From Alphaproteobacteria bacterium (GTDB lineage Bacteria; Pseudomonadota; Alphaproteobacteria; Geminicoccales; Geminicoccaceae), in the NCBI GenBank assembly GCA_030431615.1, contig JAUIID010000004.1, positions 1-63,414 of the forward strand: a stretch of 63,414 nt of DNA, given 5' to 3'. The translations under genes were made by a program, and so were the position numbers. Under the pieces are notes generated by a model, which was given only the letters and a program-made list of their open reading frames with translations, did not search any database and had not been told where the DNA came from. Below, in pieces: positions 2,283 to 18,983 of this stretch. Each line of letters starts with the position of its first letter. Position 1 is the first letter of the stretch.

Positions 2283-2618
2283 ATGCTGCTCCTGAACGCC
2301 GCCGCCGCCGTCTTCTGCGCCCACGGGCCGGGCCGCGTCGCCGCCCTGCCGCGCCAGACCTTCGCCCGGATCGAAGGCCTGCCGATCCTGACCAGGGGCG
2401 ACACGCTCGGCCGCCCGGTCGCCGGCTGCCCGCCGACACCGCCGCTCAAGCCCTGCCTCGTCACCATCGCCGAGACCGAGGGCCATTCCGAGCTCGTCCG
2501 GATCGACGGCGAGCCGGCCCTGCTCGACACGCTGAGCGGCATCACCAGCGGCGATCCGCCGGGGGCGGTCGACTACACCGCCCGCAGCCCCGGCCAGCAC
2601 CTGGTGCAGGAGACATGA
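2283..2618 (+). CDS. PAAR-like spike tip protein
   Basis: A 111-residue protein between the spike and gp25 genes. It contains 'RVAALPRQTFARIEGLPIL' and 'GRPVAGCPPTPPLKPCLVTI', followed by a second 'RIDGEPALLDTLSG' strand. The pattern of short strands, Gly/Pro turns and paired Cys resembles PAAR-like proteins that sharpen the VgrG spike. The AGGAGG ribosome binding site ends 8 bases before the ATG, and the stop overlaps the ATG of the next gene. In Afp-type operons the tip gene lies close to the gp25 gene, which supports the call. The classical PAAR motif is not obvious by eye, so the exact family remains uncertain. Confidence 0.6.
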   Translation: MLLLNAAAAVFCAHGPGRVAALPRQTFARIEGLPILTRGDTLGRPVAGCPPTPPLKPCLVTIAETEGHSELVRIDGEPALLDTLSGITSGDPPGAVDYTARSPGQHLVQET

Positions 2619-3067
2619 GCCCCGAGGGCCGGAGCCGGCGACGCCTGCAGCGCGGGCTCCGCTTCTTCCCGCTGGACGCGGGCGACGCCCGGCCGCCCGG
2701 CCTCGCCATCGACAGCCATGGCGGCATGCGCATGGTCGAGGGCGCCGACACGGTGCGGCAGTCGCTGATGACCCTGCTCTCGACCCGGCCGGGCGAGCGG
2801 GTCATGCGGCCGGACTATGGCTGCGACCTCGACGCCCTGGCCTTCGCCCCCTTCGGGGCGACCACCAACACGCTCGCGAAGCTCCTGGTCCGCCGGGCGG
2901 TCGAGTGGTTCGAGCCGCGGGCGGAGATCAGGCGCCTCGAGGTCACGACGGCGGCACGCAGTGCGGCGGAGCTGGTCATCACCCTCGACTACGCGGTGCG
3001 CGGCGAGCCGGGCCAAGACCGGCTGGCCTTCACCGTGCCCACCCGGCCCGACGAGCCAGCGCCATGA
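2615..3067 (+). CDS. GPW/gp25-family baseplate wedge protein (Afp9-like)
   Basis: The 150-residue protein carries the gp25 signature: 'SLMTLLSTRPGERVMRPDYG' at about residues 50-68, then 'LAKLLVRRAVEWFEPRAEI'. In T4 phage, type VI secretion (TssE) and eCIS, gp25 proteins nucleate the sheath at the baseplate through an EPR-type core; here the Glu-Pro-Arg is visible in 'WFEPRAEI'. The start overlaps the stop of the tip gene and the stop overlaps the start of the gp47-like gene (ATGA), so stoichiometric translation is likely. Residues 1-40 form an Arg-rich N-terminal extension. Confidence 0.92.
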   Translation: MSPEGRSRRRLQRGLRFFPLDAGDARPPGLAIDSHGGMRMVEGADTVRQSLMTLLSTRPGERVMRPDYGCDLDALAFAPFGATTNTLAKLLVRRAVEWFEPRAEIRRLEVTTAARSAAELVITLDYAVRGEPGQDRLAFTVPTRPDEPAP

Positions 3068-5688
3068 CCCTGAAGCCGCCCAATCTCGACGATCGCACCT
3101 TCGACGACCTGGTCCAGGCGGCGGCCGAGCGGATCGAGGCCTCCTGCCCCGAATGGACCGACTTCTCCGCCGGCGATCCCGGCAGGACGCTGGTCGAGGT
3201 CTTCGCCTATCTGACCGAGACGCTGATCTGGCGGGTCAACCGCCTGCCGGAGCGCGCCTATCACGAGTTCCTGGGGCTCATGGGCATCGGGGTGCGCCCG
3301 CCGGCAGCGGCGTCGGCGCTGCTCACCATCAGCCGCGCCGACCCGGCGGAACCGGCGAGCCTGCCGCCCGGCACGCGGGTCCTGGCCGAGCGGCCGGGCG
3401 GCGGCGGCGATCCCGTCACCTTCGTGACGCTCGCCGGCGTGCAGTTCGAGGCGGGGGCCGCGGCGGCAACCGTGCGGGCCGCCCATGTCGAGGCGGTCGA
3501 GGGCGAGCTGGTCGGCGAGGGCGACGGCCGGCCGGGGCAGAGCTTCCGCGTCGCCCGGGCGCCGATCCTGGCCCCGCTCGGCGATGCGGGCGACCTCGCC
3601 GTCGGCGTCGAGCTCGGTGCTGCCGAGGAGCCGCCGGCCGGCGAGACGGTGCGGCGCTTCGGCGAGACCCGCTTCGCCGTCTGGCGCGAGGTCCTGGACT
3701 TCAGCGCCTGCCGCGCCGGCGACCGCGTCTACGTGGCGGATCGGGCCACCGGCCTCATCCTCTTCGCCCCGGCGGTGCGCCTCGCCACGCCCGGCGAGGC
3801 CGATGTCGGCCCGCCGCCCCTCGGCCGCCGCCCCGAGGCGCTGGCTGCCGCCCCCGGCAAGGGCCGGCGGGTGCGTGTCTGGTATCGCGTCGGCGGCGGC
3901 GAGGTCGGCAATGTCGTGGCCGGCGCGCTCACACGGCTCGAGCCACCCCGGGCCGGGATCGCGGTGACCAACCCCGCGGCCGCGACCGGCGGGCGCGACG
4001 GCGAGACGGTCGCCAATGCCGTCGCCCGCGGGGCGCGCGACCTCGCCGCGCGCGGCCGGGCGGTCACCGCCAGCGACTACGAGGCGCTGGCCGAGAGCCA
4101 GGGGCACGTCACCCGGGCCCGGGCCTACCCCCTGGCCGAGATCTGGCGCCACGCGGCACCCGGCTCGGTCGAGGTGGTGCTGACCCCGTTCCTCGCGGCG
4201 GACCCGGAGAGGGGGCCGCTGACCCGCCCCATCCTCGAGGCGGCCTGCACCGAGGACGGGCTCGAGCGCACCCGCCGGCTGCTGGCGGAGCGCCGTCCGC
4301 TCGGCGCCCGCTCGGAGGCGCGCTGGGCCGCCTTCAAGCCGATCCGCATCCGCGTGCGGGCGTCGCTCCGGGCGCATGTCGACCAGGAGGCGATCGCCGG
4401 CCGCCTCCAGCGCGCCCTGGACGCGCTGATCTCGCCCTTGCCCGATCCCGCCACCGGTGCCGCCGGCTGGCCGTTCGGCCAGCCCTTGCGCAGCTGGCAC
4501 ATCAACGACCTGGTGCGCCGCGAGCCTGGCATCGACTATCTCGAGGACCCGGTCATCGAGACCGACGAGACGCCGCACGGGGTCACGCGCACGCTCGCCG
4601 CCGATCGCTTCCAGCAGGGCTTCTGGTATGCCGGTTCCGGCGACGCGCTCTATCGCTCGGTCAATGACGGCGACGGCTGGGAGCTCGCCCGGCGTTTCGC
4701 GGACGAGACCGTCGAGCTGGTGGCGACGCCGGCCGCCTGGCACCGGGCGCCGGAGATGGTCGGCCTCGTCGCCATCGTCACCCGCTCCGGCACCGGCGGC
4801 GCCTTCTACCTCTCGCGCGACTGCGGCGACAGCTTCGCCCTGCAGCTCCGCTTCGAGGAGGACGCGATGGTTCGCGACCTCGACTTCGTCATGCGCGACG
4901 CCGGGCCGGCCCTGCTGTTCGCCGCCCAGGACGGGCTACGCGAGTTCGTCATCGACCGCGACCGGCTGTGGCGCCAGATCGTCGTCGACCCGGCCCAGCC
5001 CGACCTCTCGCTGCAGGCGCTCGCCGTCGCCCGCAACCCGGTGGCCGGCACCAGCGTCTTCGTCTCGGTGATCGGCCGCGGCCTCTACTGCTCGTCGCGC
5101 GACGGCATTGCCGGCAGCTTCCGCGGAATCGGCCCGGCCGGCTTCCAGCATGCCCTCTTCGGCGTGCTCGAGGCGCACGAGTTCGGCGGCCGGAGCCGGG
5201 TCTGGGCGGGTGTGCGCGCACCCTCCGACGCCGAGGGCGAGGGCTGCTTCGAGTTCAGCGTGACCGGCACGGAGGACCAGCCGCCGGTGCGCCGCCTGCT
5301 CGAAGGGTGGGGCGGCGAGAGCTGCCGCGGGCTCGCCTTCCAGGACGACCTCGTGCTTTCGGGCACGCACCGGGGCGGCGTGCAGACCCTCTCGCTCACC
5401 GACGCGGAGCCGCGCTGGCGGCCCTCCGACGTCACCTGCGGCCTGCCGCTCAGGCGGCGCGACGCGCTGCAGCCGGTCCTGGTCATCGCGGCGGCCAACG
5501 GTGTCGTGATGGCCGGGCCGGACCGGCGCGACGATGGCGAGGGTGGCGGCGTCTATCGCAGCACCGACGGGCGGAGCTTCCGCCTGTGCAGCCCGCGCCA
5601 GCATCGCGGCATGGTCACCCTGCCGCCCAACTGGCTCTTCTGCGCCGCCGACCACCACGTCATCGAGCCGCCCGAAGATGAACGCTGA
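3064..5688 (+). CDS. Baseplate J/gp47-family protein fused to Asp-box beta-propeller (Afp11-like)
   Basis: The 874-residue protein begins with the usual baseplate wedge N-terminus, 'FDDLVQAAAERIEASCPEWT' then 'DPGRTLVEVFAYLTETL', as in Afp11/gpJ proteins that build the baseplate wedge. A gp47-like core follows to about residue 510, with 'NDLVRREPGIDYLED' near its end. Residues about 515-870 do not belong to the normal family. They hold four Asp-box-like repeats (SVNDGDGW, SRDCGDSF, SSRDGIAGSF, STDGRSF) at fairly regular spacing, typical of sialidase/VPS10-type beta-propellers. The start ATG overlaps the gp25 stop; an in-frame upstream start at 2905 would run through gp25 and is unlikely. The propeller may be a carbohydrate- or protein-binding surface on the baseplate rim (inference). 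Confidence 0.85.
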   Translation: MTLKPPNLDDRTFDDLVQAAAERIEASCPEWTDFSAGDPGRTLVEVFAYLTETLIWRVNRLPERAYHEFLGLMGIGVRPPAAASALLTISRADPAEPASLPPGTRVLAERPGGGGDPVTFVTLAGVQFEAGAAAATVRAAHVEAVEGELVGEGDGRPGQSFRVARAPILAPLGDAGDLAVGVELGAAEEPPAGETVRRFGETRFAVWREVLDFSACRAGDRVYVADRATGLILFAPAVRLATPGEADVGPPPLGRRPEALAAAPGKGRRVRVWYRVGGGEVGNVVAGALTRLEPPRAGIAVTNPAAATGGRDGETVANAVARGARDLAARGRAVTASDYEALAESQGHVTRARAYPLAEIWRHAAPGSVEVVLTPFLAADPERGPLTRPILEAACTEDGLERTRRLLAERRPLGARSEARWAAFKPIRIRVRASLRAHVDQEAIAGRLQRALDALISPLPDPATGAAGWPFGQPLRSWHINDLVRREPGIDYLEDPVIETDETPHGVTRTLAADRFQQGFWYAGSGDALYRSVNDGDGWELARRFADETVELVATPAAWHRAPEMVGLVAIVTRSGTGGAFYLSRDCGDSFALQLRFEEDAMVRDLDFVMRDAGPALLFAAQDGLREFVIDRDRLWRQIVVDPAQPDLSLQALAVARNPVAGTSVFVSVIGRGLYCSSRDGIAGSFRGIGPAGFQHALFGVLEAHEFGGRSRVWAGVRAPSDAEGEGCFEFSVTGTEDQPPVRRLLEGWGGESCRGLAFQDDLVLSGTHRGGVQTLSLTDAEPRWRPSDVTCGLPLRRRDALQPVLVIAAANGVVMAGPDRRDDGEGGGVYRSTDGRSFRLCSPRQHRGMVTLPPNWLFCAADHHVIEPPEDER

Positions 5689-6220
5689 GCGCATCCTGGC
5701 CCTGCTGCCGGGCTTCTGGCGTGGCGCCCGCCTGCCCGGCAGCCCGCTCGACGCGACGCTCGAGGCCATGGCGGAGATGCTGGCGCCGGTGGCGGAGCGC
5801 CTCGACACCATCGACGAGATCCTCGACCCGCGCCGCTGCCCGGACCGCATGCTGCCCTGGCTCGCCACCATGGTCGGCATGGCGCCGCTGCTGCCGCTGC
5901 ACCGGGGGGGCCAGGGCGTGCTCGACGACGCAGCGCTCAGGGCACTGATCATGGCGGCGCCGCGGCTCACCGCCGACCGCGGCACGAGGGCCGCGCTGGA
6001 GCACGCCCTCGAGGTCGCCCTCGGCGAGGGTCTCGTGATCGACGAGGGCGGCGACGGGCGGGCCTTCCACTTCACCCTCGAGGCGCCGGGCGAGCTGCGC
6101 CCGCGGGCCGAGCTGATCGAGGCGCTGGTCTGGCTGCTCAAGCCGGCCCACGTCACCCACGCGATCCGCTGGCGCGAGCCCGGCGAGGGCGCGGTGGAGG
6201 CGAGCGGCCAAGCCGTGTAG
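5678..6220 (+). CDS. Phage tail protein I-like baseplate protein (Afp12-like)
   Basis: A 180-residue protein starting at an ATG inside the end of the gp47-like gene. It shows the tail protein I pattern: 'ILALLPGFWRGA', 'LDTIDEILDPRRCPDRMLPW' and 'LAPVAERL', then 'AALEHALEVALGEG' and 'LLKPAHVTHAIRWRE'. In P2 and eCIS this protein joins gpJ at the outer wedge and carries fibres. No tail fibre gene follows; the next genes encode membrane PASTA proteins, which is unusual. The annotated start gives the family-typical N-terminus; longer in-frame extensions overlap the propeller coding region. Confidence 0.8.
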   Translation: MNAERILALLPGFWRGARLPGSPLDATLEAMAEMLAPVAERLDTIDEILDPRRCPDRMLPWLATMVGMAPLLPLHRGGQGVLDDAALRALIMAAPRLTADRGTRAALEHALEVALGEGLVIDEGGDGRAFHFTLEAPGELRPRAELIEALVWLLKPAHVTHAIRWREPGEGAVEASGQAV

Positions 6221-6263: not shown

Positions 6264-7424
6264 ATGGCAGCGATCGTCAATATCGACCAGCCGGTGACCG
6301 GGCTCGTGCTCGATGCCGGGCAGAAGGAGACGCTCAGCCTCGACGTGGTCAACGTGGCCGGCCGGCCCCTGCAGGTGGCCGTCGCCACCGTGCCCGAGGC
6401 CAATGCGGGCGGCACGGTGCCCGGCTGGATCACCATCGAGGGCGAGACGACGCTGAAGCTCGCGCCGAGCGAGACGCGCAAAATCACCATAGGCCTGGCG
6501 CCGCCCGCGGGTGCGGCCGGCGGGGCCGCCTTTCGCCTCAAGGTCTACGAGGTCTCGCTGCCCGAGGAGAACAACAGCTTCAGCGAGGTCGTGCAGGTCA
6601 CGGTCAACGCGGCGGCCGCACCGGTCGTCGAAAAGAAGCGGCCCTGGGCGCGCATGGGCGCCATCGCCGCCGTCCTCGCCCTGCTCCTCGCCGGCGGTGG
6701 CTGGCTCGCCTATGACCGGCTCAGTCCCGGGGCCCTGCCCAATGTCGAGGGCCGGCCGCTCGCCGAGGCCATCGCCGCCCTCGGGGAGGCCGGTGTCGCC
6801 CGCTCGGCGATCGAGGAGGAGCGGCCGATCGAGCGCGACGCCGACGGCACGGTGACCCGGCAAACGCCCGCCGCCGGCACGACCATCGAGGAGGGGCTCG
6901 TGGTGACGCTGACCGCCCCGCGCCCGCCCGAGACCGTCACCCTGCCGCGCCTGCCGGACGATGCCACGGGTGCGGTGGCGCAGGAGACCTATGGCGCTCT
7001 CGGCCTCACGGTCGAGCTGGTCGAGGATGCAGCTGCACCGGGCCAGGAGCCCGGCCTTGTCGTCGACGTCACGCCGGCCCCGGGTTCGACGGTCGCCGAG
7101 GACGAGACGGTGCGGGTGACTGTGCTCTCGGCCCGGGCCACGGTGCCCGATGTCAAGGACGGCGTGCTCACCCCGGCCATGCGCAACGAGATGAAAATGA
7201 GTTTCGAGCTGGTCGAGGACCGGGTCGAAGACGCGAACCACGATGCCGGCTTCGTCCTGGCACAGAGCCCGGTCGGCGAGCAGCCGCGCGGCAGCCAGGT
7301 CCTGCTGGTGACGACCCGCAAGCCGCGCTCGGGCGGCGGCCGGTTCAACAGGGATCTCAGGATACACGAGCTCTTCCAGGGCAACGCGGACATCCAGACG
7401 CAGATGATGAGTCGCCCCCAATAG
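6264..7424 (+). CDS. Single-pass membrane protein with N-terminal Ig-like domain and three PASTA-like repeats
   Basis: The 386-residue protein has no signal peptide. Residues 1-115 form a beta-rich Ig-like domain ending in 'LKVYEVSLPEENNSFSE'. A basic patch (EKKRPWAR, 123-130) precedes a transmembrane helix at 131-150. The C-terminal part has three PASTA-like repeats starting near 158 (LPNVEGRPLAEA), 233 (LPRLPDD) and 303 (VPDVKDG), each about 70 residues with 'TPAAGT' or 'TPAPGS' turns. Positive-inside logic puts the Ig-like domain in the cytoplasm and the PASTA tail in the periplasm. PASTA domains in known proteins often bind peptidoglycan. It lies 43 bases after the last baseplate gene and has a longer paralogue next door, so a role with the injection system is likely but unproven. 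Confidence 0.75.
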   Translation: MAAIVNIDQPVTGLVLDAGQKETLSLDVVNVAGRPLQVAVATVPEANAGGTVPGWITIEGETTLKLAPSETRKITIGLAPPAGAAGGAAFRLKVYEVSLPEENNSFSEVVQVTVNAAAAPVVEKKRPWARMGAIAAVLALLLAGGGWLAYDRLSPGALPNVEGRPLAEAIAALGEAGVARSAIEEERPIERDADGTVTRQTPAAGTTIEEGLVVTLTAPRPPETVTLPRLPDDATGAVAQETYGALGLTVELVEDAAAPGQEPGLVVDVTPAPGSTVAEDETVRVTVLSARATVPDVKDGVLTPAMRNEMKMSFELVEDRVEDANHDAGFVLAQSPVGEQPRGSQVLLVTTRKPRSGGGRFNRDLRIHELFQGNADIQTQMMSRPQ

Positions 7425-7521: not shown

Positions 7522-9216
7522 ATGGCCGCCATCGTGCAGATCGACCAGCCCGTCACTGCGGTGGCTGTCCAGGCAGGGGAGCAGCAGTCGCTCGGCTTCG
7601 ACATCGTCAATGTCGCCGGCCGTACCCTGAACATCGTTGCCACCACCGTCCCCGCGAGCGGCGGTCGGACGCCTGCCTGGCTCACCGTGGACGGCGAGCG
7701 GACGCTGCGCCTCCAGCCGAACGAGACCCGCAAGGTGACGCTCCGCCTCGCCCCGCCCGCCACTGCGCCGGCCGGCGAGCTGGCGATCCGCCTGAAGGTC
7801 TACGAGGTCTCGCTGCCCGAGGAGAACAACGGCTTCAGCGAGGCCGTTGCGGTCACCGTGACGCCGGCACCACCGGTGGCGCCGAAGCGGCCCTGGAAGC
7901 TGATTGCCGCCATTGCGGCAGTGCTGGCGCTCGTGGTCGCCGGGGGTGGCTGGCTGGCCTTTGAGCATTTCACGCGCGCGGTCATGCCGAACGTCGAGGG
8001 CAAGAGTGTCGCCGACGCGGAAGCGGCGCTCCAGCAGGCGGGCATCGCTGCGGACGCCATCACCATCACGAACACCATCGACCGCAACGCCGACGGCACG
8101 GTGACAAGCCAGTCGCCGGCCGCCGACACGCCGCTCGACGACGAGGCCAGCGTCACCCTGACCGTGCCACGCCTGCCCGTGATGCCCGATCTCGCGGGCA
8201 TGACGCTGGACGAGGCGAACAAGGCGTTGGTCGACGCCGGCATCGATCCGACCAGGGTCACGCTCGGCCGGGCGCCGGGGCGCCAGAGCGGGCGCATGGT
8301 GGCACAGGAGCCCGAGCCGGGCACCGAGCTGGCACCGGGCACGGAGGTGTCCCTGAAGCTCTCGGCGCTCATCATGCAGCTGGTCGAAGGCGCCACGCTC
8401 GAGGGCGCGCGCGCCCACCTCGAGGAGGCCGGCTTCTCCTGGTCGGTCGTGACGGTCGAGCGCCCCATCAGCCTCGACGCCGGCGGCCAGGTGACCAGCC
8501 AGACGCCCGGCCCGGGCACGGTGATGGACCAGGCCTCGCCGGTCACGCTGGTCGTGCCGCGTCTGCCCGAGATGCCCGACGTGAACGGAAGACTCCTGGC
8601 GCAGGCGTTGACCGCGCTGGAGCAGGCCGGCATCCCGCCCGCCCGCGTGGCCGTCGAGCAGCCGCTCGCCAGCCAGGACATCGACCGGGTGACCGCGCAG
8701 GCGCCCGACCCGAAAATCGCGGTCTCGGCCGACACCCAGGTCACCCTGACCGTGCCCCGGCGGCCGGGCAACGTGGCGGTGCCCCCCCTTCCCGACGCCG
8801 CCACGCGTGCAGACGCGGAGCGCATCCTTGCCGAGCACGGCCTGAACGTCCTGATTGTCGAGGAGCGGGAAACACCGGGCCTCATCCCCGGCCTCGTGCT
8901 GAAGACCATTCCGCCGGTGGGGTCCCTCATCGCCGAGGACGGGACGGTTCGCGTGCATGTGCTCTCGACCATGGTCGACGTCCCCCGACTGCGAGGTCAG
9001 ATCCTCAACGATCGCCTGCACCAGCAGCTCCGGGAGCTCGAAAGCTACCTCCGCGTGGTTATCCAGGAGCGGGTGGATTTCAAGCCGTCCGGCTGCGTCT
9101 TCGACCAGTCGCGCTTCGACGAGGCGCAGCGTGGCGGCCGAGTGATCTATCACGTCGTCGGCCGATCGCTGTCGCGCGGTCGGGTCGACGTCGATATCCC
9201 CTGCGACTCGTCTTGA
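7522..9216 (+). CDS. Single-pass membrane protein with N-terminal Ig-like domain and six PASTA-like repeats (paralogue)
   Basis: A 564-residue paralogue of the preceding protein. Residues 1-110 match its N-terminal domain closely (both have 'LKVYEVSLPEENN'), a KRPWK patch at 122-126 precedes a membrane helix at 127-147, and six PASTA-like repeats follow. The repeats begin with MPNVEG, MPDLAG, MQLVEG, MPDVNG, VPPLPD and VPRLRG. The first and the last two repeats correspond to the three of the shorter paralogue, so the middle three look like internal expansion. A 97-base gap separates the two genes. The C-terminal 40 residues after the last repeat contain two Cys (CVF and IPCDSS) that could form a periplasmic disulfide. 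No kinase domain is attached, unlike Gram-positive PASTA kinases. Confidence 0.75.
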   Translation: MAAIVQIDQPVTAVAVQAGEQQSLGFDIVNVAGRTLNIVATTVPASGGRTPAWLTVDGERTLRLQPNETRKVTLRLAPPATAPAGELAIRLKVYEVSLPEENNGFSEAVAVTVTPAPPVAPKRPWKLIAAIAAVLALVVAGGGWLAFEHFTRAVMPNVEGKSVADAEAALQQAGIAADAITITNTIDRNADGTVTSQSPAADTPLDDEASVTLTVPRLPVMPDLAGMTLDEANKALVDAGIDPTRVTLGRAPGRQSGRMVAQEPEPGTELAPGTEVSLKLSALIMQLVEGATLEGARAHLEEAGFSWSVVTVERPISLDAGGQVTSQTPGPGTVMDQASPVTLVVPRLPEMPDVNGRLLAQALTALEQAGIPPARVAVEQPLASQDIDRVTAQAPDPKIAVSADTQVTLTVPRRPGNVAVPPLPDAATRADAERILAEHGLNVLIVEERETPGLIPGLVLKTIPPVGSLIAEDGTVRVHVLSTMVDVPRLRGQILNDRLHQQLRELESYLRVVIQERVDFKPSGCVFDQSRFDEAQRGGRVIYHVVGRSLSRGRVDVDIPCDSS

Positions 9217-9247: not shown

Positions 9248-9730
9248 GTGAAGAAGGCGGTGGCCCTCCTCGGCCTCGTCGTCGTCCTCAGCTGGCTCGC
9301 CTTCACCGCCGGTGCCTTGCGGAGCGACGGGACCGGCGGTGGCGATCCGATCGAGGCGGCGCGCGGCGTGATCGCCAGCCTGCTGGAAACGCCGCTGGCC
9401 TCGGGCGATCTCGCAGCACCGGCCACGGCAGGCTGCCGACAGGAGGGGATCGAGCTCTCCGTCGCCACCGGCCAGACCTGCACCTTCACCGTCGCCCCTG
9501 GCGGCAGCCGGGTGCGACGGGGGCTGATCCGGATGCGGCAGGGCATGGGTGAGGCGGTCTTCAGCCCGGCGCCGAGCGCGGCCACACGGCCCGGCCCCAC
9601 CGCCCGCAAGCTCGGCGGCGACCGCACGCTCGACCTCTTCGCCTATGAGGAGGGCGGCGAGCTCGAGCTTTCCTGCACGGATGCCGGCGGCGGGGCCGCC
9701 TGCCGCTTCCGCCTCGAGCGGCCGGCCTGA
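9248..9730 (+). CDS. Exported hypothetical protein
   Basis: A 160-residue protein starting at GTG. An N-terminal signal or anchor helix (KKAVALLGLVVVLSWLAFTA) has no lipobox Cys. The mature part has four Cys in two pairs (GCRQEG/QTCTF and SCTDAG/ACRF), suggesting disulfides in the periplasm, and mostly beta-type sequence. No family was recognised. It lies 31 bases behind the PASTA protein and 4 bases before a membrane protein gene, so it is likely cotranscribed with the injection-system block. Confidence 0.55.
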   Translation: MKKAVALLGLVVVLSWLAFTAGALRSDGTGGGDPIEAARGVIASLLETPLASGDLAAPATAGCRQEGIELSVATGQTCTFTVAPGGSRVRRGLIRMRQGMGEAVFSPAPSAATRPGPTARKLGGDRTLDLFAYEEGGELELSCTDAGGGAACRFRLERPA

Positions 9731-9734
9731 GAGG

Positions 9735-10493
9735 ATGCGCACCTGGCCCGTCCACCTCGCCCTCGTCGCCATCCTCGTGGCGCTCGGGCTCGAGATCGGC
9801 GCCCGCTTCCTGCCGGTGCCGGTCATGCCGCCCGACGAGGCCATGTTCCAGGCGATGGACGAGGAGGATCGGGACGCGGCGCGCGCCCAGTTCGCCGAGC
9901 AGAGCGAGGGCGCCGAGCGGCCGCCCGGCCTCGCCCTGCCGGCGCTGGCCACGGTCGACGGCCTGCTCGCCTGGACGGGGCTCCTCTTTGCCACGGCGAC
10001 GGTGATGGCGCAGGGCTGGCACAGCCGGATCCGCACCGTGGCGACCATCCTCGTCTGCCTCTCGGTCATGGGCACGGCGGGGCTGATGCTCATGGCGGCC
10101 ATCGCCAAGCTGACGCTGATGCTCTCGCTGCTGCTGGCGGTTCCGTTCGGCACCATCGCCTATCTCGCCGTCTACGGCAGCTTCTCCAGCGGCCCGGTCC
10201 TCGCCATGCTGGCCGGGGCCACGCTCTGCCGCGGGATCTTCATCGGCCTCCTGCTCTTCGCGAGCTGGCGCTATGTCGAGAACAAGGTGCTGATGTTCCT
10301 GACCGCCACGGGCTTTCTCGGCGGCTTCGTGATCGGCCTCCTCTTCTCCTTCCTGCCCGGCATCCTGCACAGTATCGGCGATGCGGTGGGCGCCATCGTG
10401 CTGGCGATTTTTGGCCTCATCTGGGCGATCGTGCTGTTGCTGATGTCACTGCCCGGCCTGATCAAGCTCCTGCGCGTCGACCGCCTGGTGTGA
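9735..10493 (+). CDS. Polytopic membrane protein of unknown function
   Basis: A 252-residue protein with about six predicted membrane helices. One lies at residues 7-25, followed by a charged acidic segment (PPDEAMFQAMDEEDRDAA), then a run of helices from about residue 68 to 245. Late segments are Gly-rich (GFLGGFVIGLLFSFLPG, AIVLAIFGLIWAIVLLLMS), of the kind found in small pores or assembly proteins. No known family was recognised. The ATG at 9735 is chosen because it gives an N-terminal helix and lies 4 bases after the previous stop; the longer frame from 9549 only overlaps the upstream gene. Confidence 0.6.
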   Translation: MRTWPVHLALVAILVALGLEIGARFLPVPVMPPDEAMFQAMDEEDRDAARAQFAEQSEGAERPPGLALPALATVDGLLAWTGLLFATATVMAQGWHSRIRTVATILVCLSVMGTAGLMLMAAIAKLTLMLSLLLAVPFGTIAYLAVYGSFSSGPVLAMLAGATLCRGIFIGLLLFASWRYVENKVLMFLTATGFLGGFVIGLLFSFLPGILHSIGDAVGAIVLAIFGLIWAIVLLLMSLPGLIKLLRVDRLV

Positions 10494-15701: not shown

Positions 15702-18700
15702 GTGGACATCGGCACGTGGTTGCGGGCGTTGGACGTCGAGCGCTACGAGCAGGCGTTCCGCGACAACGACGTCGACGCTGCCGTGCTGCCAAATCTGACA
15801 GCGGACGATCTGATCGGGCTTGGGGTCGCCTCGATCGGGCACCGTCGCAAGATGCTCGCCGCCATCGCCTGCCTGCACGCAACCGAATCAACACCCACGC
15901 CACCGCCTGGCGAACGGCCTGATATTGCGGGGCCCGACCTGGCTCGGCGATCCGACGCCGAGCGGCGGCAGTTGACGGTCATGTTCTGCGATCTGGTCGG
16001 GTCGACCGCGCTGTCGGGCAAGCTCGACCCCGAGGACCTCGGTGGGTTGATCCGCGCCTATCAAGGGCAGTGTGCCAAAGTGGTCGAGCGTTGGGGCGGC
16101 CACCTGGCCAAGTATATGGGCGACGGGGTGCTCGCCTATTTTGGCTGGCCGACCGCCCATGAGGACGACCCCGAGCGCGCGGTCCGGGCGGGGCTGGAGC
16201 TGGTCGAGTCGGTTGCGGATCAGACGACACCGGACGGGAACGCCCTGGCGGTTCGGGTCGGGATCGCGACGGGCCTCGTCATGGTCGGCGACCTGATCGG
16301 CGCAGGGGCATCGCTGGAGCAGACCGTGGTCGGTGAGACGCCCAATCTGGCCGCGCGCCTCCAGGGCCTGGCCGAATCCGGCACGGTCGTCGTGGCCGAC
16401 GACACCCGGCGTCTGCTGCGCGGTGCATTTCAGTTAGACAATATTGGCGCGCACACGCTCAAGGGCTTCGATGCGCCCGTGACTGCCTGGCGGGTGTCGG
16501 GCGAGGCGGCAGCGGAAAGCCGCTTCGAGGCCCAGGTGCAAGAGCCCACGCTTCTGGTCGGACGCGACGACGAGGTCGAGATTCTAGATCGTCGTTGGCA
16601 GCGCGCGCGTGGCGGTGAGGGCCAGGTGGTGCTGATCGTCGGGGAGGCAGGGATCGGCAAGTCCCGGCTCGCGGCGACCCTGCGCGAGCATATGGCCGAT
16701 GCACGCCATGTCCGGCTGACCTATCAATGTTCGCCACACCATGCCGAAACCGCTTTCCACCCCGTCATCCGGCAACTCGAGCATGCGGCGAGCATACGAC
16801 CTGAACAGGACCGGGCAGAAAGGCTCGGTCGGCTGAAGGCGTTGTTGCGGTCGTCGGGCGACGCCGCGGAAGAACCGGTTCGGCTGCTGGCGTCGCTGCT
16901 GTCGATACCATTGGAGCCGGTGGCGAAGCTCGACGGTCACGAACTGAAGGAGAGGACACTCCGCACGCTGCTCATGCAGGTCGAGAGGCTCGCGTCGTCC
17001 GGCCCCGTGCTGATGCTGTTGGAAGATCTGCACTGGGCCGACCTGTCGACGCTCGAGCTCTTGGATCGGCTGGTCGAGCGGGTCGAGCCTCTGCCGGTTC
17101 TCGTTCTGCTCACGGCGCGGCCCGGATTCGTCGCACCCTGGACCGATCAGGCTCATGTCACGTTGTTGACCCTGAACCGGATCGGCAGGCGGGAAAGCCG
17201 CACCCTGTCGGAAGCGCTCGTTGGCGAGGGGTCGATATCCGACGACCTGATCGAGGAGATCACCATCCGGAGCGATGGTATCCCGTTGTTCATCGAGGAG
17301 TTGACGCGCACCGTGCTGGAGACCCGACGGGCTGATGGCCAGTTGGCGACCGGCTCGGGCCCGCCAGGAGTTCCGGCCTCGCTACAGGACTCCCTGATGG
17401 CGCGGTTGGATCGTCTGGGCACAGGCAAGCCTGTGGCGCAGGTCGCCGCTGCCATCGGCCGCGACTTCACTCCCGAGATGCTCGAGCCGATTTGCGGCCT
17501 GCCGCGCGGCGAGCTCGACCGGGCATTTGACGAGCTGGCCAGTGCCGGCGTGCTCATCCGACGCGGAACGTCGCACGCCTCCTACGTTTTCAAGCACGCG
17601 CTGGTCCAGGATGCCGCTTACAACAGTCTCCTGCTGGGGAGCCGGCGCCAGCTGCACCAGCGGATCGCAGAGGCGCTCGGCGAGCGCCTGGCTGAAGAAC
17701 CGGCGCTGCTCGCCCATCATTGGGAAGGCGCGCAGGATTTCAGCCAGGCCTTGAAGTATCGCCTGGTCGCGGGCGACCGCGCCCTGGCACGTTCCGCCAT
17801 GCAGGACGCGAACGCGCAGTACTGGCGTGCGGTGGAGCTGTTGCGAAAGCTGCCGGACTCCGAGGACACGCGGCGGCAACACCTCGCCACGATATTGGCG
17901 CTGGTCCGTTCAATCGGCGAATTCTGGCAAAATGATGCCGATCGGGCCCGAGCGCTTTCACATATCGACAGGGCTATCGAAATCGCGACCAACAGCAACG
18001 ATGCAGCCGCGCTCGCGCGGCTGAAAGCGTTCAAGGCCGAGAGATGGGGCTTTGAACCACTCTTCACCGAAGCCGTCCGCCACGCCATCGACGCCGGCGA
18101 CCAACGGGTCAGAGCCGACGTCGAGCGCTATGCCGGAGGCCTCTACGGCATGCTCGGCAGATTCGAGGAATCCATCGGTCATATCGAACGAACGATCGAG
18201 ATGTACGCTGAGCTCGGGGCCGAAATTGACCAGGGCCTCGCCATGGGCGGCGCCGGTCGGTGCTACTCGGCCCGTGCAGGGAGGCTCGAGCAATCGTTCC
18301 AATATGCCGAGCGCGCTCGCGCCATCGCGACTGCGACGGGCAACCTCAGGCTCAGATCGAGACTGGCGATGGAGGCCGAGCCCTGCCTCTACAAGGGGCT
18401 CTGGCAACGGGCGGTCGACGTCGTGGACCATGAGCTGCCTGTGGCCTGGGAGTTAGGCGATTGGCCCACTATCCTGTGGTGCTCCGGCTGGGCGGCCATA
18501 AGCGAGGTGAAGCTCGGTCGGAGCCGGTCTGCCCGCGCCCGGATCGATGCAGCCTTCAAGAAGGCCGGTCCGCGTTGTGCGAATCCATTCGTCAAGTCCT
18601 ACCCGCTGATCGCCCTCGGCCAGGTGCATTTGGCTGAGGGAGAGCTTCAGGCTGCCCTGGATGCAGGCCGCAAGGCTGCCGAGATGGGCGTCCGGGCGGA

Positions 18701-18983
18701 AGCCAGACTGGAGCAGGGGGCGGCCCACCGCCTGCTGGGGCAGATCCAGGAGGCAAGGGGCGATCGAGCTGCTGCTGAGGCCGATCATCGAGAGAGCCTC
18801 GAGATCCTCGGCGCCATCCAATCGCGACCAGAGCTGGCCCAGAGCCTGCTCGCCTACGGGTGCTTCAAGCGCCCGGACGATGCCGACGCAGCTTGCCGCC
18901 TGCTCGAGGATGCCCTCGCGATATTCGAGGACATCAACGCCACCGGTTGGATCCAGGAGACCCGGGTCGCGCTGAAGGCGTGA
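15702..18983 (+). CDS. SAM domain / class III adenylate cyclase / AAA ATPase / TPR protein
   Basis: A 1093-residue cytosolic signalling protein starting at GTG. Residues 1-65 form a SAM domain (WLRALDVERYEQAF to IGHRRKMLAAI). Residues about 86-260 are a class III nucleotide cyclase, with metal-binding Asp in 'MFCDLVGSTAL' and 'YMGDGVLAYFG'. An AAA/STAND-type ATPase follows: Walker A 'GEAGIGKS' at about 315 and Walker B-like 'LMLLEDLHWAD' near 440. The C-terminal ~450 residues contain TPR-like helical repeats. The family (cyclase plus AAA plus TPR) is common in rhizobia and relatives; it probably makes cAMP in response to an unknown protein ligand. No HTH was seen at the C-terminus. Confidence 0.88.
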   Translation: MDIGTWLRALDVERYEQAFRDNDVDAAVLPNLTADDLIGLGVASIGHRRKMLAAIACLHATESTPTPPPGERPDIAGPDLARRSDAERRQLTVMFCDLVGSTALSGKLDPEDLGGLIRAYQGQCAKVVERWGGHLAKYMGDGVLAYFGWPTAHEDDPERAVRAGLELVESVADQTTPDGNALAVRVGIATGLVMVGDLIGAGASLEQTVVGETPNLAARLQGLAESGTVVVADDTRRLLRGAFQLDNIGAHTLKGFDAPVTAWRVSGEAAAESRFEAQVQEPTLLVGRDDEVEILDRRWQRARGGEGQVVLIVGEAGIGKSRLAATLREHMADARHVRLTYQCSPHHAETAFHPVIRQLEHAASIRPEQDRAERLGRLKALLRSSGDAAEEPVRLLASLLSIPLEPVAKLDGHELKERTLRTLLMQVERLASSGPVLMLLEDLHWADLSTLELLDRLVERVEPLPVLVLLTARPGFVAPWTDQAHVTLLTLNRIGRRESRTLSEALVGEGSISDDLIEEITIRSDGIPLFIEELTRTVLETRRADGQLATGSGPPGVPASLQDSLMARLDRLGTGKPVAQVAAAIGRDFTPEMLEPICGLPRGELDRAFDELASAGVLIRRGTSHASYVFKHALVQDAAYNSLLLGSRRQLHQRIAEALGERLAEEPALLAHHWEGAQDFSQALKYRLVAGDRALARSAMQDANAQYWRAVELLRKLPDSEDTRRQHLATILALVRSIGEFWQNDADRARALSHIDRAIEIATNSNDAAALARLKAFKAERWGFEPLFTEAVRHAIDAGDQRVRADVERYAGGLYGMLGRFEESIGHIERTIEMYAELGAEIDQGLAMGGAGRCYSARAGRLEQSFQYAERARAIATATGNLRLRSRLAMEAEPCLYKGLWQRAVDVVDHELPVAWELGDWPTILWCSGWAAISEVKLGRSRSARARIDAAFKKAGPRCANPFVKSYPLIALGQVHLAEGELQAALDAGRKAAEMGVRAEARLEQGAAHRLLGQIQEARGDRAAAEADHRESLEILGAIQSRPELAQSLLAYGCFKRPDDADAACRLLEDALAIFEDINATGWIQETRVALKA

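Follow-up and report, generated by a model that had tools for sequence, protein, structure and literature searches.

Results

A baseplate J gene with an in-frame extension

The window, by which we mean the whole 63,414-nucleotide stretch analysed here (contig C180 of its assembly, positions 1–63414), begins with genes of a contractile injection system (CIS). Its first base is the start codon of a gpU-like gene, and the upstream half of the operon consequently lies outside the window. This gene, encoding the protein in the gpU/LysM position (Pfam CIS_tube; 1–756; PF19266, E=4.9e-9), is followed, on the plus strand like the window features described below as far as position 10493, by a gene for a fused gpD–gpV (VgrG-like) spike protein (753–2270; PF04717, E=4.3e-14; VgrG-related NF033848), a candidate PAAR-like spike tip of ~110 AA (2283–2618) and a gp25 baseplate wedge gene (2615–3067; PF04965, E=1.5e-21). 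The spike-tip candidate was recognized by alignment and is conserved in all members of the lineage; its counterpart in Paracoccus has a weak PAAR_motif match (E=0.007).

The next gene, at 3064–5688, is a single intact frame of 874 codons with no internal stops, and encodes a baseplate J (Afp11/Cis11) core of ~510 residues followed by a C-terminal domain of 362 residues. As had been proposed from the letters alone, the core (3064–4599) is of the J/Afp11 type: it matches TIGR02243 (E=7.3e-62; 209.8 bits against a curated cut-off of 155.8), which like Pfam Baseplate_J spans the first ~500 residues, and its best solved match is Cis11 of Streptomyces coelicolor (PDB 9gtp; E=8.4e-91 in a profile search). 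The extension (4600–5688) is in frame with the core and conserved over its full length in the relatives described below; it had no family match in Pfam or NCBIfam and no PDB chain match by single-sequence search. A short Tail_P2_I (Cis12-like) wedge gene (5678–6220, start inferred from the ORF; PF09684, E=6.6e-12) overlaps the J stop; its product is similar to chain E of PDB 9gtp (190 AA; E=5.2e-6) and to its counterparts in Deinococcus, Rhodovulum and Paracoccus.

Asp-box motifs and propeller similarity of the extension

The sequence-only reading of this DNA had described four Asp-box-like repeats in the extension. All four strings are present; the first two, SVNDGDGW (4657–4680) and SRDCGDSF (4813–4836), are canonical and each kept in 5/6 members of the lineage (the first reads SLDDAQAW in Paracoccus), whereas SSRDGIAGSF (5092–5121) and STDGRSF (5560–5580) are degenerate by one-residue indels and are not conserved as boxes. 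Two canonical boxes in 362 AA compare with 0.07 expected from shuffled sequences (P=0.002), and of four relatives put to this test, three showed similar enrichment (P 0.001–0.0035), Paracoccus giving P=0.055. A profile built from five relatives matched PDB 3b7f, a BNR-repeat glycosyl hydrolase (E=1.5e-6), and the whole-protein profile linked the start of the extension to PDB 6p2k, whose annotation is that of a protein with a fibronectin type III domain and which we take to be a GH74 enzyme. HMM–HMM comparison with three Asp-box proteins from other genomes gave 93.7% and E=1.9e-7 (hhalign), one and the same region of the extension aligning in several consecutive blade registers along the target, while neither a column-shuffled extension nor the J core matched these proteins. 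Motifs beyond chance and profile similarity together identify an Asp-box β-propeller-type domain fused to J in a CIS, as had been claimed.

This identification applies to the first part of the domain, since the profile and HMM–HMM signal is significant only for residues ~1–170 of the extension, and the C-terminal half scores scarcely above shuffles against Asp-box proteins. That half is conserved between phyla, with weaker conservation beyond the first blades. AlphaFold runs with one and with two sequences yielded pLDDT values of 32.8 and 32.3, and both models are too low for use. Asp-box propellers are irregular and boxes are often absent from several of their blades (PMC2716378), so that the low box count is no objection to a propeller, and the length of the extension and the spacing of ~50 residues from box 1 to box 2 make six or seven blades likely. 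The motifs had also been read as the mark of sialidase or VPS10-type propellers. Membership of either family can be dismissed, as the window extension has no such Pfam match, nor a match to any other glycosidase family; weak BNR and Sortilin-Vps10 matches occur in the extensions of some relatives (best E 0.05 and 0.08). Compared with 3b7f and VPS10/sortilin, the extension thus shares Asp-box motifs and blade-register profile similarity, but differs in the absence of an enzyme or VPS10 family match, in its few boxes and in its phage-tail-like context.

Recurrence and ancestry of the fusion

A tblastn search of 72,556 plasmid records with the whole J protein returned five full-length carriers, namely Deinococcus sp. 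AJ005 (38%), Rhodovulum sulfidophilum (two records), Rhodovulum sp. MB263 and Paracoccus sp. MC1862, which represent four distinct proteins. The extension alone retrieved the same five records and no others, and so, exactly, did the gpU-type protein. Viral contig searches added one member, on a truncated metagenomic contig (L076), and otherwise none; no further carriers were found in 385 genomes of the same class, in 398 of the same phylum or in phages. The fusion is therefore present in six distinct J proteins (window, Deinococcus, two Rhodovulum, one Paracoccus plasmid and L076), and the recurrence in related loci that the sequence-only reading had looked to for support extends to four other full-length proteins and the truncated metagenomic one. 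The J-propeller type is rare in the sampled genomes. About 28 other J proteins, some of them truncated, have no Asp-box extension, and two of these contain single chance motifs. A C-terminal match in one genome (G037) was spurious, lying antisense to a miaB-like gene, and several other weak genome matches to the extension proved to be non-propeller proteins.

In a tree of 23 J proteins from which the extension had been cut off, the six distinct carrier cores formed one clade with 100/100 support, spanning Alphaproteobacteria and Deinococcota. Since these cores group in this way even without their extensions, the fusion is no assembly artefact; a frameshift or assembly join as its source is also ruled out by the presence of the same fusion in complete plasmids and in the metagenomic contig. 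The tree favours a single old fusion that would subsequently have spread across phyla.

Gene content of the lineage

The carriers are a compact CIS lineage. In Deinococcus, Rhodovulum and Paracoccus alike, the loci comprise genes for sheath and tube, for a proline-rich and a gpU-like protein, and for gpD–gpV, the PAAR-like protein of ~110 AA, gp25, J-propeller, a short Tail_P2_I and a PASTA protein; their CIS gene set is complete, that of the window covering gpU onward only. Pfam and record annotation revealed no tail fibre and no AAA ATPase in the sequenced loci, nor any obvious tape measure, in agreement with the earlier observation that no fibre gene follows J, and the loci accordingly do not show the combination of these three components seen in classical eCIS of the Afp/PVC type. 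One candidate for a divergent tape measure is the proline-rich protein.

The same genome carries further CIS genes. On contig C150 (L075:1-4742, minus strand), a sheath–tube–proline-rich–gpU–gpD segment belonging to this CIS type is cut by the end of the contig. Where it overlaps the start of the window, identity is 88.5% across 1,309 aligned bases, for which reason we regard it as a second copy or strain variant and not simply as the missing upstream half. Additional sheath-like matches lie at C195:5684-25353 and C271:25523-26212, and C195 also has a J protein, whose open frame of 987 AA contains no Asp-boxes. At least one more contractile system seems to be encoded in this genome.

Membrane proteins in the fibre position

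In every locus that extends past J, a gene for a transmembrane (TM) PASTA protein follows Tail_P2_I, either directly or, in Deinococcus, after one additional membrane-protein gene. The window has two such genes. The first (6264–7424; PF03793, E=4e-21) encodes a bitopic protein in which a single TM segment (residues 131–149) separates an N-terminal Ig-like region from C-terminal PASTA domains, an organization found in each of the PASTA proteins, and the second (7522–9216; PF03793, E=2.6e-50) encodes a copy with five PASTA stretches and a TM segment at residues 127–145; the two are 52% identical over 282 AA. Homology among the N-terminal domains was found for the window, Deinococcus and Rhodovulum (hhalign 85.6–93.9%), while pairwise comparison detected no homology between these and the Ig-like region of the Paracoccus protein. 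The N-terminal flank of the TM segment is positively charged in 4/5 PASTA proteins, which suggests that the N-terminal domain is cytoplasmic (N-in).

Two more genes come next in the window. A small protein with an N-terminal signal or anchor segment (9248–9730; TM residues 4–22) has weak similarity to its counterparts; small proteins of this kind lie near the cluster end in Deinococcus, Rhodovulum and Paracoccus, their equivalence resting mainly on position and topology. The adjacent gene (9735–10493, start codon inferred from the ORF) encodes a polytopic membrane protein, whose homologue in Paracoccus is found immediately upstream of the cluster (36% identity over 191 AA, E=2.7e-19). Among other proteins in these regions, the polytopic protein between Tail_P2_I and PASTA in Deinococcus (L018:23046-23963) contains an HExxH-type string, HEFVH, and has no Pfam match, and the product of a large downstream ORF of the window (15702–18983) resembles by eye a regulator of the SAM-domain, class III cyclase, AAA and TPR type.

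Discussion

The closest parallel to the lineage described here is the CIS of S. coelicolor (lineage IId), which lacks a fibre and in which the gene for the bitopic protein CisA comes immediately after the baseplate genes (PMC12237407). Likeness is seen in the best match of the J core, in the short Tail_P2_I/Cis12, in the lack of a fibre gene and in the bitopic membrane protein just after the baseplate genes, a position analogous to that of CisA being occupied by the TM-PASTA protein. Contraction in situ depends on CisA, which in-silico screening predicts to bind Cis11 (PMC12237407). The layout of the lineage is that of Streptomyces with the PASTA protein in the place of CisA and a propeller on Cis11. 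However, the two systems are distinct: S. coelicolor Cis11 (652 AA) ends without a propeller, the carrier J proteins form a clade separate from the Streptomyces ones, and CisA differs in its cytoplasmic region and in its periplasmic domain, which is not PASTA. A Streptomyces plasmid cluster has the order gp25, J, Tail_P2_I, TM protein. A Streptomyces protein encoded after J and Tail_P2_I (L080:10524-11633) has a TM segment, two motifs like zinc ribbons and a C-terminal domain that by eye is reminiscent of a discoidin-type fold; it is possibly related to CisA.

Additional domains on Cis11 are known from tCIS and AlgoCIS, as a cage or as a C-terminal extension to Cis13 (PMC8894136; PMC12237407). 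The thylakoid-anchored tCIS of Anabaena resembles the present lineage in that extensions of the baseplate anchor the particle and in that Cis11 has a C-terminal extension, which contacts Cis13 and for which no propeller is mentioned (PMC8894136). The sequence-only reading had named no standard Afp, PVC or MAC baseplate protein with such an extension; a C-terminal extension of Cis11 as such does have this precedent. The Anabaena system differs in that its extension reaches a fibre-like Cis13 and anchoring is by Cis12/Cis13, and the similarity of its core to the window J is weak (7b5h, E=2.7e-8). In the eBAP3 eCIS, a propeller domain is likewise placed on a CIS baseplate, but on a separate fibre protein via the eBAP domain, whereas the propeller of the window is part of the J wedge protein itself. 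In a literature search of mainly open-access papers, we found no report of a J-propeller fusion or of PASTA proteins in contractile systems.

We propose that the J-propeller serves as a docking module of the baseplate for the producer's own envelope, acting via a membrane protein encoded in the cluster, and we assign this reading a probability of about 0.4. According to this model, the ancestor of this compact CIS lineage would have acquired, in a single event, an Asp-box propeller-type domain on its Cis11/J wedge protein. PDB 9gtp contains 12 J chains and 6 Cis12 chains, and by analogy with this S. coelicolor structure an assembled particle could display up to twelve propellers round its baseplate. 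Particles would assemble in the cytoplasm, where the propellers may bind the Ig-like domain of the TM-PASTA protein, or another membrane protein of the cluster, while the PASTA domains would reach the cell wall. Contact between propeller and membrane protein could then position or trigger the machine, as has been proposed for CisA in Streptomyces. In favour of the model are the identical sets of five plasmid records retrieved with propeller and gpU, the single clade of carrier cores, the TM-PASTA gene that follows Tail_P2_I in the loci reaching past J, the positive flank of its TM segment, the lack of a recognized fibre gene and the match of the J core to S. coelicolor Cis11. Against docking count the small number of loci, the low pLDDT of both AlphaFold runs, the Paracoccus Ig-like region with its undetected pairwise homology, and the chance that the PASTA protein acts separately from the propeller. 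A more specific version, in which the lineage is a distinct intracellular CIS whose ring of J-propellers docks to the PASTA protein, and the state of the cell wall sensed by PASTA licenses or triggers firing from inside the producer, is in our estimate improbable, with roughly one chance in four.

That the propeller instead binds a receptor or glycan on behalf of a released particle, standing in for the missing tail fibre, we consider less likely than docking, but a serious alternative. The absence of a recognized fibre gene from the loci would suit this role, as would the β-propeller lectins borne by several eCIS fibres (PMC12923769), the many Asp-box propellers that are glycosidases or receptors (PMC2716378) and the lower conservation of the extension beyond the first blades, which fits a receptor-binding role and is to be counted against docking. 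However, the Asp-box is mainly a fold-stabilizing motif (PMC2716378), the window extension matches no sialidase or other glycosidase family, and, because the bitopic PASTA protein and other membrane proteins occupy the fibre position, docking to the producer's own envelope is favoured by context over binding outside the cell. The sequence-only reading had allowed for both kinds of contact, and its overall interpretation is partly supported.

Of the same probability is a reading in which the propeller is a structural part of the wedge, supports adjoining J subunits, Tail_P2_I or the spike region in the manner of the additional Cis11 domains of tCIS and AlgoCIS, and has no role outside the baseplate. 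Its retention in 6/6 members would be expected of such a part, and known Cis11 extensions do touch other baseplate or fibre components (PMC8894136), but a domain of 360 AA is large for a brace, the related Cis11 of S. coelicolor does without it, and the constant membrane-protein neighbours would be left unexplained. A different kind of alternative concerns the fold and is compatible with docking, receptor binding or bracing alike: the last 360 residues may not form a closed propeller, with only three or four Asp-box blades giving way to a different fold. The confinement of HMM–HMM similarity to the first ~170 residues and the low pLDDT values point in this direction; against it stand the irregularity of Asp-box propellers, many blades of which have no box (PMC2716378), a length and box spacing that suit six or seven blades, and the conservation of the C-terminal half between phyla. 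We rate an open fold as the least probable of these alternatives.

Work on Streptomyces has raised the question of how intracellular machines that have neither fibres nor a T6SS membrane complex find the membrane and fire at it. The lineage described here suggests a discrete and testable answer, namely a docking domain within the baseplate wedge together with a membrane partner encoded in the same operon. The fusion is present in the sequenced isolates Rhodovulum sulfidophilum DSM 1374, Paracoccus sp. MC1862 and Deinococcus sp. AJ005, which makes this idea accessible to experiment.
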